Source of the DNA: Methanosarcinales archaeon
GTDB lineage: Archaea > Halobacteriota > UBA148 > JAUWXC01
Assembly (NCBI GenBank): GCA_026016205.1
Contig: CP061209.1
Span: 512,433-576,432, forward strand
Direction: 5' to 3'
Length of the DNA stretch: 64,000 nucleotides
Shown: positions 404 to 4,629 of the stretch, piece after piece
Layout of the letters: the number at the start of each line of letters is the position of its first letter
How positions within the stretch are numbered: the first letter of the stretch is position 1
The notes under the pieces: model-generated
Database searches by the model: none
What the model was told of the DNA's origin: nothing
What the model saw: the letters and a program-made list of their open reading frames with translations, nothing else
Translations under genes and position numbers: made by a program

Positions 404-1981
404 ATGAAGTACATAATAGTCACGGGCGGTGTGATAAGCGGTCTTGGAAAGGGCATCACTGCCGCCTCGATAGGCAGAATTTTGAAAAATAAGGGGTACA
501 ACGTAACCGCCGTCAAGATCGACCCCTATATAAACATAGACGCGGGAACGATACATCCCCTCCAGCACGGGGAGGTCTTCGTGCTCAAGGACGGTGGTGA
601 GGTTGACCTTGATTTGGGGCATTATGAGCGTTTTCTCGATACAGAGCTCATGAGCGAGCACGACATCACCACTGGCAAGGTGTATAAAGCGGTAATAGAG
701 AGGGAGCGCAGGGGAGACTATCTTGGCAACACTGTCCAGATTATACCTCACGTTACGAACGAAATCAAGGAAAGAATAAGAGAGGTAGCCAAGAAGAGCG
801 GGGCAGAGATTTGTCTCGTCGAAATCGGAGGTACGGTCGGTGACATAGAGAGCATGCCGTTTTTAGAGGCGATGCGCCAGATGCACAGCGAGGAGGGGGA
901 GAGAGACATACTTTTCGTCCATGTCACGCTGGTTCCATTGGATAAAATGGGCGAGCAGAAGACCAAGCCGACGCAGCACTCAGTCAAAATGTTGCGCGGG
1001 CTTGGACTCAGTCCGGATGCCATCGTAGCCAGGTGCAAAGATCCGCTGCTGCCAAAGACAAAGGAGAAGATTTCACTGTTCTGCGATGTGCCCAGGGAGG
1101 CTGTGGTAAGTGCGCATGATGCCGAGGATATTCACATGGTGCCGCTTCTGCTTGAGGATGAAAACCTTGATGAATACCTCATGAAAAAACTCCACCTCAA
1201 GCCCAAGAGAGATGGGAGAAAGTGGCACGAGATGGTGGAGAAAATGGCAACGCTTGAGAAGAAGGTTAAAGTGGCGTTGATTGGCAAATACACAGAAGTG
1301 GAGGATGCATATCTGAGCATCAAGGAGGCGCTGAAGCATGCCGGCATAGAGAACGGCTGCATAGTGGACATCGTTTGGATCGGGGCAGAGAGTTTGGAGA
1401 AGAATTCAAAAGCAGTCAAGCGCCTGAATGAAGTCGACGGCATACTCGTTCCAGGCGACGACGGCAAGGGGGCTAAAGGCAAGATAAAGGCAATTCAATA
1501 TGCAAGGGAGCACAACATCCCGTTTTTTGGTCCATCCCTTGGCATGCAACTAGCGGTCATCGAATTTGCCAGAAATATGGTTGGATTAAAGGATGCAAAC
1601 AGCTCCGAACTCGCGCAAACCGAGCATCCTGTCATTGATTTATTGCCTGAGCAGGCAGACGTCGAGGAAATGAGCGGGACAATGCGCCTGGGCAATTATG
1701 AGGCAATTCTTAAAAAAGGTTCGCTGGCACACAAGATATACGGCAAGATGAAGATCGTGGAGCGACACAGGCACAGGTATGAGGTCAATCCGAAGTACAT
1801 CGACGTCATTGAGGCAAAGGGCATGATATTCTCTGGCAGGAACAAAAACAGGATGGAGATTGCCGAGATACCATCGCATAGATTCTTTTTCGCCTCGCAG
1901 TTCTACCCTGAGTACACCTCGCGCCCGGAAAGGGCATCACCGCCTTTCAGGGCTTTTGTCAGGTCGATGCTGAAGAAGTGA
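404..1981 (+). CDS. pyrG: CTP synthase with degenerate glutaminase domain
   Basis: Converts UTP to CTP, the last step of pyrimidine nucleotide synthesis. The 525-aa product has the usual two-domain length. The N-terminal amidoligase domain starts [17 protein letters not shown], so ATG 404 is preferred to the GTG at 395, which overlaps the previous gene. The class-I glutaminase half (about residue 290 on) is recognisable but its active site is altered. The nucleophile motif, normally GICLGMQ, reads GPSLGMQ (Ser378). The catalytic His motif, normally FHPE, reads FYPE (Tyr501). The oxyanion loop PGGFGxRG reads [11 protein letters not shown] infer an ammonia-dependent enzyme; the synthase half looks intact. 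Confidence 0.95.
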
Positions 1982-4091: not shown

Positions 4092-4262
4092 ATGAAGATA
4101 AAAGATGTAATAAAGCGGTTTGGATCGATTAAGACCAAGGTCACCGAGAAAGAAGTGATGGAGTTGAGAGAGGCTTGGAAACTGGACAAAAGATAGAATA
4201 AGATACTCGAAGAGGATGAATTCATACCGTTTTTCGGAAGAGGCAAAGGTTATAGAGAATAA
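4092..4262 (+). pseudogene. Small ORF interrupted by an in-frame amber codon
   Basis: ATG 4092 follows a GGTGGGGAA ribosome-binding site and opens 34 codons ending in ...AWKLDKR, then TAG at 4194-4196. The same frame continues for 21 more codons (NKILEEDEF, then IPFFGRGKGYRE) to TAA at 4260-4262. Composition and spacing look continuous across the TAG, so this is one protein of about 56 residues carrying an amber codon. It may be a nonsense-mutated gene, a readthrough/pyrrolysine case, or a sequencing error. It lies directly before a zinc-finger/AbrB gene of the kind found in toxin-antitoxin pairs. I do not recognise the family. Confidence 0.45.
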
Positions 4263-4284
4263 CCGTGAATATGGCTGCGAGGCT

Positions 4285-4629
4285 ATGAACATGAAGAAAT
4301 GTCCAATCTGCGAAGGAACGATAAAAAAGGTGAAGACAAAAGCAGAGATTGAAGGAGTCACCTTAGCCGAGGGTTTAGAGGTAGAGAAATGTAGCAAATG
4401 TGGTGAGGAATTTTACACGTTAGAGCAGATGTCTTTTTTGCGAAAGAAAGCTCAGGAAAAAGGGGCATGGGGCTCAGGACTGAGATTGAGAAGAAAGATC
4501 ACCAGGTCAGGAAAAAGACTGGCGTTATATCTGCCAACTGATATTGAGCGCAATCTGAAACTCAAAAAAGGGGAAGCAGTTGATATCTGGACAGAAGGAC
4601 GAAAGATCATCATCGAGCCCGTTTCGTGA
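4285..4629 (+). CDS. YgiT-type zinc finger plus AbrB-like protein, probable antitoxin
   Basis: About 114 residues from ATG 4285 (or ATG 4291). The N-terminus has CPIC and CSKCGEE Cys pairs spaced as in YgiT/MqsA-type zinc fingers. The C-terminal half (LALYLPTDIERNLKLKKGEAV) resembles an AbrB/MazE swapped-hairpin DNA-binding domain. ATG 4216 is in the same frame, but that region is better explained by the overlapping small ORF, so the later start is preferred. Such proteins usually repress their own toxin-antitoxin operon. The partner should be the upstream small ORF, which is broken. Confidence 0.65.
   Translation: MNMKKCPICEGTIKKVKTKAEIEGVTLAEGLEVEKCSKCGEEFYTLEQMSFLRKKAQEKGAWGSGLRLRRKITRSGKRLALYLPTDIERNLKLKKGEAVDIWTEGRKIIIEPVS

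Follow-up and report, generated by a model that had tools for sequence, protein, structure and literature searches.

CTP synthase is the standard example of a glutamine-channelling enzyme activated by GTP. GTP speeds the hydrolysis of glutamine and not the NH3-dependent formation of CTP, and the GTP cleft is the supposed entry route of exogenous NH3 (PMC9138612). The G352P mutant of the Escherichia coli enzyme showed no glutamine-dependent activity and nearly full NH4Cl-dependent activity (PMC9138612). In Drosophila CTP synthase, Phe373 stacks on GTP, and Arg376 binds the GTP phosphates (PMC8325340). In human CPS1, the catalytic Cys is replaced by Ser, the inactive glutaminase-like domain is retained and free ammonia is used (PMC4655335). 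For those archaeal PurF' proteins that lack the N-terminal Cys, ammonia dependence was proposed as a possibility on account of the missing nucleophile (PMC3261824). Searches of the open literature found no natural CTP synthase described as glutaminase-dead, which is limited evidence.

The pyrG gene described here lies in a window of 64,000 nucleotides (the whole stretch of DNA that was analysed) of an archaeal MAG, G000, which consists of one contig of 987 kb and has a completeness score of 87%. Compared with glutamine-hydrolysing CTP synthases (TIGR00337; E. coli, Sulfolobus, Thermus, Drosophila), its product is homologous over the full length and alike in fold, synthase site and tunnel residues, and the gene order is kept in the genus; however, the catalytic Cys and His, the oxyanion/lid loop and the GTP-stacking Phe are absent. 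Its closest precedent is the ammonia-specific vertebrate CPS1. The human protein differs in being another enzyme, in having a reported lesion of the Cys alone and in responding to the allosteric activator NAG, whereas no such activator is known for this PyrG. The archaeal PurF' differs in being a class II amidotransferase, and the PurF of G000 retains its Cys. The E. coli G352P mutant is altered at the same oxyanion/lid position, but it is laboratory-made and its triad is intact.

The pyrG gene and its glutaminase site

The features of the gene are as follows:
404..1981, + strand: pyrG, CTP synthase of 525 aa, predicted to be glutaminase-dead (TIGR00337, 771 bits; single copy)
407..1198, + strand: synthase (amidoligase) domain, residues 2-265 (PF06418 over residues 2-265; invariant columns)
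1265..1978, + strand: class-I glutamine amidotransferase domain (residues 288-525) that keeps its fold but has a dismantled catalytic site, as judged from its residues (PF00117 over residues 299-519; AlphaFold model; dN/dS 0.085)
1451..1480, + strand: rebuilt oxyanion/lid L11 loop, residues 350-359 (ancestral PGGFGVRGAEG)
1526..1540, + strand: nucleophile elbow FGPSL (ancestral LGLCF), residues 375-379, with Ser378 in place of the catalytic Cys
1898..1915, + strand: QFYPEY, residues 499-504, where Tyr501 stands at the catalytic His position; Glu503 is retained and residue 504 is changed (F504Y)

The reading frame starts with the ATG at 404, and its stop codon ends at 1981. The product scores 413 bits against PF06418 (CTP_synth_N), 109 bits against PF00117 (GATase) and 771 bits against TIGR00337, the PyrG equivalog model, with a curated cut-off of 463. 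With NF004836 (CTP synthase C-terminal region-related (seleno)protein) it reaches 150.5 bits, below the cut-off of 260. Standard models name such enzymes 'glutamine hydrolyzing', and the annotation thus hides the change. No second PyrG was found in the whole G000 genome; the intact copy that, according to the first-pass annotation of this DNA, would speak against a functional change is therefore not there. In the same window, the small protein encoded at 4216-4629 carries a zinc-finger-like CxxC...CxxC motif at its N-terminus, and its C-terminus weakly resembles MazE/AbrB, with a score under the Pfam cut-off; it may be an antitoxin.

That annotation, made from the sequence alone, had claimed that the nucleophile Cys is replaced by Ser378 and the catalytic His by Tyr501, and that the oxyanion loop is rebuilt. 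Reading of the codons bears out both replacements: TCC at 1535-1537 (C378S) and TAC at 1904-1906 (H501Y), so that the Cys-His-Glu triad reads Ser378, Tyr501, Glu503. The loop, too, is rebuilt, ten residues standing where the congener G002 has PGGFGVRGAEG. The oxyanion glycine and lid motif GGFG.RG is not preserved: GGFGVRG has become GDDG-KG, one residue shorter, the lost residue having sat between Gly354 and Lys355. The loop changes comprise G352D, F353D, this deletion, R355K and E358K. The one-residue deletion and E358K, together with L375F, L377P, F379L and F504Y, are active-site changes of the same branch that the earlier reading did not contain.

The position of E. coli Gly352 is occupied by Asp in this PyrG, and the Drosophila residues Phe373 and Arg376 correspond to D353 and K355. 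The Phe stacking on guanine and the lid Arg contacting the phosphates are consequently missing from the GTP contacts (F353D, and R355K with the deletion); the remaining contacts K295, Y296 and L107 are kept. Also retained are Glu503 of the triad and the glutamine-site residues Gln382, Glu402 and Arg458. The nucleophile, the base, the oxyanion/lid loop and the GTP-stacking Phe have thus all disappeared. From sequence, a loss of glutaminase chemistry could not be established more firmly, which supports the claimed loss of function.

Since Gln382, Glu402, Arg458 and Glu503 are retained, the pocket may have preserved the ability to bind glutamine or some other ligand. The site could accordingly be rebuilt and not dead, with Ser378, alone or together with Tyr501 or the two new Asp residues, forming a different catalytic or ligand-binding site such as that of a metabolite sensor or of a hydrolase with a nucleophilic Ser; the clustering of changes in the active site and the gain of the charged residues D352, D353, K355 and K358, conserved between the two species that have them, would fit this. 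However, the general base His and the oxyanion glycine are gone together with the nucleophile, and Ser at the Cys position gives no glutamine use in human CPS1 (PMC4655335) or in PurF and AsnB (PMC3261824). In CarA of the same genome, moreover, the Cys is replaced by Gly, which is incapable of a nucleophile role. A rebuilt catalytic or sensory site is thus improbable, and a loss of the glutaminase is preferred.

Descent of the altered PyrG and constraint on the retained domain

Every change is present in PyrG of the congener G001 (public contig JAUWQV010000002.1, 'Methanocellales archaeon CSMAG_2511'), which is 96% identical to that of G000, comes from another assembly and lies in the same neighbourhood. 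Sequencing error, against which the first-pass annotation had already argued, is thereby ruled out. PyrG of G002 (contig JASEEY010000002.1; 88% identical to that of G000) is intact, and that of a further congener, G003, is canonical as well. The change therefore occurs in two of the four species of the genus and is not clade-wide, a point that an alignment with related archaea had been proposed to settle. Genomes of this genus are about 1 Mb in size. No methyl-coenzyme M reductase alpha subunit was found in the 8 genomes of the order, though MAGs of it are titled Methanocellales.

All 101 other distinct PyrG sequences compared within the phylum are canonical at these sites, and 20 further sequences from its other families have the canonical Cys and loop. 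When the rebuilt 52-residue segment was compared with 394 genomes of the phylum, it scored 106 and 103 bits in the pair and did not exceed 71 bits in any other genome, and the other top matches that were read were canonical too. The four species share one pyrG neighbourhood, which indicates change by descent; horizontal transfer of pyrG is ruled out by this shared neighbourhood and by the highest identity being to congeners. These comparisons place the loss of the PyrG glutaminase site in an ancestor shared by the two sister species, from which both inherited it.

On the branch leading to this pair, 20 substitutions fell in the amidotransferase half, 10 of them in the 30 of its 238 residues that were counted as active site (hypergeometric p = 1.8e-5), these 30 being three segments picked around known motifs. 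On the sister branch, none of the 8 substitutions in that half fell in the active-site segments. Of the positions in the amidotransferase half with an invariance of 98% or more, the pair has 7 altered and G002 has 0.

As the loss is common to both species, the divergence of G000 and G001 post-dates it, and the differences between them show how the dead domain has fared since. The two copies of it differ by 9 nonsynonymous and 26 synonymous changes, which gives a dN/dS of 0.085 and departs from neutrality with p = 4e-11; dN/dS of the synthase half is 0.117. Beyond the active site, the rate of change of the amidotransferase domain does not exceed that of intact relatives. Such strong constraint after the loss implies that the domain is still needed and lends support to the earlier suggestion of a structural role for it. 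It also bears on the possibility that the glutaminase half is a pseudodomain in early decay, the whole pyrG being on its way out and CTP being salvaged from elsewhere. The genome is small, and PurQ and PurS are already not found, as such decay would lead one to expect; yet pyrG contains no frameshift or stop, both halves are strongly constrained, and the rate outside the active site is not raised, which makes early decay very unlikely.

Other glutaminases of the genome

The small subunit of carbamoyl-phosphate synthetase (CPS) is altered in a parallel manner:
G000, contig C1, 432916-434028 (L122, L162), outside the window: carA, CPS small subunit, catalytic Cys replaced by Gly and His by Tyr

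CarA of G000, G001 and G002 reads GIGLGHQ, with Gly for the Cys, and QYYPE, with Tyr for the His. The G000 protein scores 461 bits against TIGR01368 despite having neither the catalytic Cys nor the His. Its GAT domain has a dN/dS of about 0.09 between G000 and G002, so purifying selection persists. PurQ, the glutaminase of FGAM synthase, and PurS were found neither in the genus nor in G009, and G000, G001, G002 and G009 have a lone PurL (L207, L211, L208 and L209, respectively). In G004 and G005, there is a purS-purL-purQ operon with a PurL of a type different from the lone one. PyrG is one of three parallel losses in G000, which the first-pass annotation did not contain; on the residues and genes present, glutaminase is stripped from three nucleotide-biosynthesis enzymes, namely PyrG, CarA and PurQ, the last with PurL kept.

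Glutamine metabolism as a whole was not lost. GlnA (glutamine synthetase) is present in G000, and the Cys is kept in TrpG/PabA, GMP synthase subunit A (GuaAa), PdxT and PurF; with these four glutaminases intact, general loss is ruled out. The class-I glutaminases among them could also suggest that a separate protein feeds ammonia in trans to PyrG (and to CarB and PurL). However, TrpG/PabA, GMP synthase subunit A and PdxT are each assigned to another enzyme, a search of G000 for PF00117 and PF13507 found no protein beyond the assigned ones, and the covalent dead domain is expected to block docking in PyrG. A supply in trans is hence held to have very little probability, and direct use of free ammonia is preferred. 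No Amt ammonium transporter was found in the genus, which speaks against compensation by this route and counts against a use of free ammonia, as ammonia would then need diffusion or a metabolic source.

The CarA loss is common to G002 and so precedes the PyrG loss. A strict order of losses with G003 CarA as the primitive state is unsafe. The carA of G003 (L165 / L121) has an intact GAT half, in which dS is saturated against all congeners, and this is not so in the N half; the intact CarA therefore cannot be taken as ancestral. From this pattern of divergence, it is a case of recombination with a distant carA or of a chimeric contig. Two genomes of family f3, G005 and G008, have an additional CarA in which Gly replaces the Cys and the His is retained; in G009 this kind of CarA is the only one found. 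This paralogue (L138, L139, L127) is deep, about 46% identical, and is followed by a CarB-like frame. Trees put it far from the f1 CarA, which means that the CarA Cys was lost at least twice.

Proposed ammonia-dependent synthesis of CTP

The AlphaFold model of PyrG has a mean pLDDT of 82, which is low near residues 43-69. Its best full-length PDB matches are CTP synthases, with a TM of 0.88 to the top match 3nva, and the model thus agrees with the earlier claim that the fold of the amidotransferase half is kept. Residues of the ATP/UTP site are kept, including K16, K38, D70, E140, K186, K188-P189 and Q191-H192-S193, as are the tunnel-gate residues P52, H55 and V58 (E. coli P54/H57/V60). Intact synthase and tunnel residues, the G352P precedent and the role of GTP together suggest that this PyrG should be NH3-dependent.

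It would then make CTP from UTP, ATP and free ammonia, the latter entering through the vestibule/GTP cleft and reaching the synthase site by way of the tunnel, both of these being intact. The cleft is probably kept clear of GTP by the rebuilt loop. Because GTP activation serves only glutamine hydrolysis, it would have been dropped along with the glutaminase, which would account for the loss of the GTP-stacking Phe and the lid Arg. The dead amidotransferase domain may be kept for its part in forming the vestibule, the tunnel and the oligomer of PyrG. CPS and FGAM synthase of G000 should likewise depend on free ammonia, and the lineage has probably switched all three steps to it.

The best explanation, in which we have considerable confidence, is that the glutaminase was lost by descent in the ancestor of the sister pair, leaving an NH3-dependent CTP synthase with a dead domain kept as architecture, as part of a wider ammonia shift. 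That this shift was stepwise is favoured with less assurance: PurQ and PurS would be missing and the CPS glutaminase dead, CTP synthase would then follow in two species, the dead domains would serve as scaffolds, and a neighbouring family of the same order would have had parallel independent Cys losses in its second CarA line.

The dead PyrG, which is natural and of recent origin, and its 88%-identical intact congener separate the glutaminase role of the amidotransferase domain from its architectural role. The case suggests that GTP control can go together with the glutaminase. With three parallel losses in a tiny genome, the question of when cells leave glutamine for free ammonia becomes testable.
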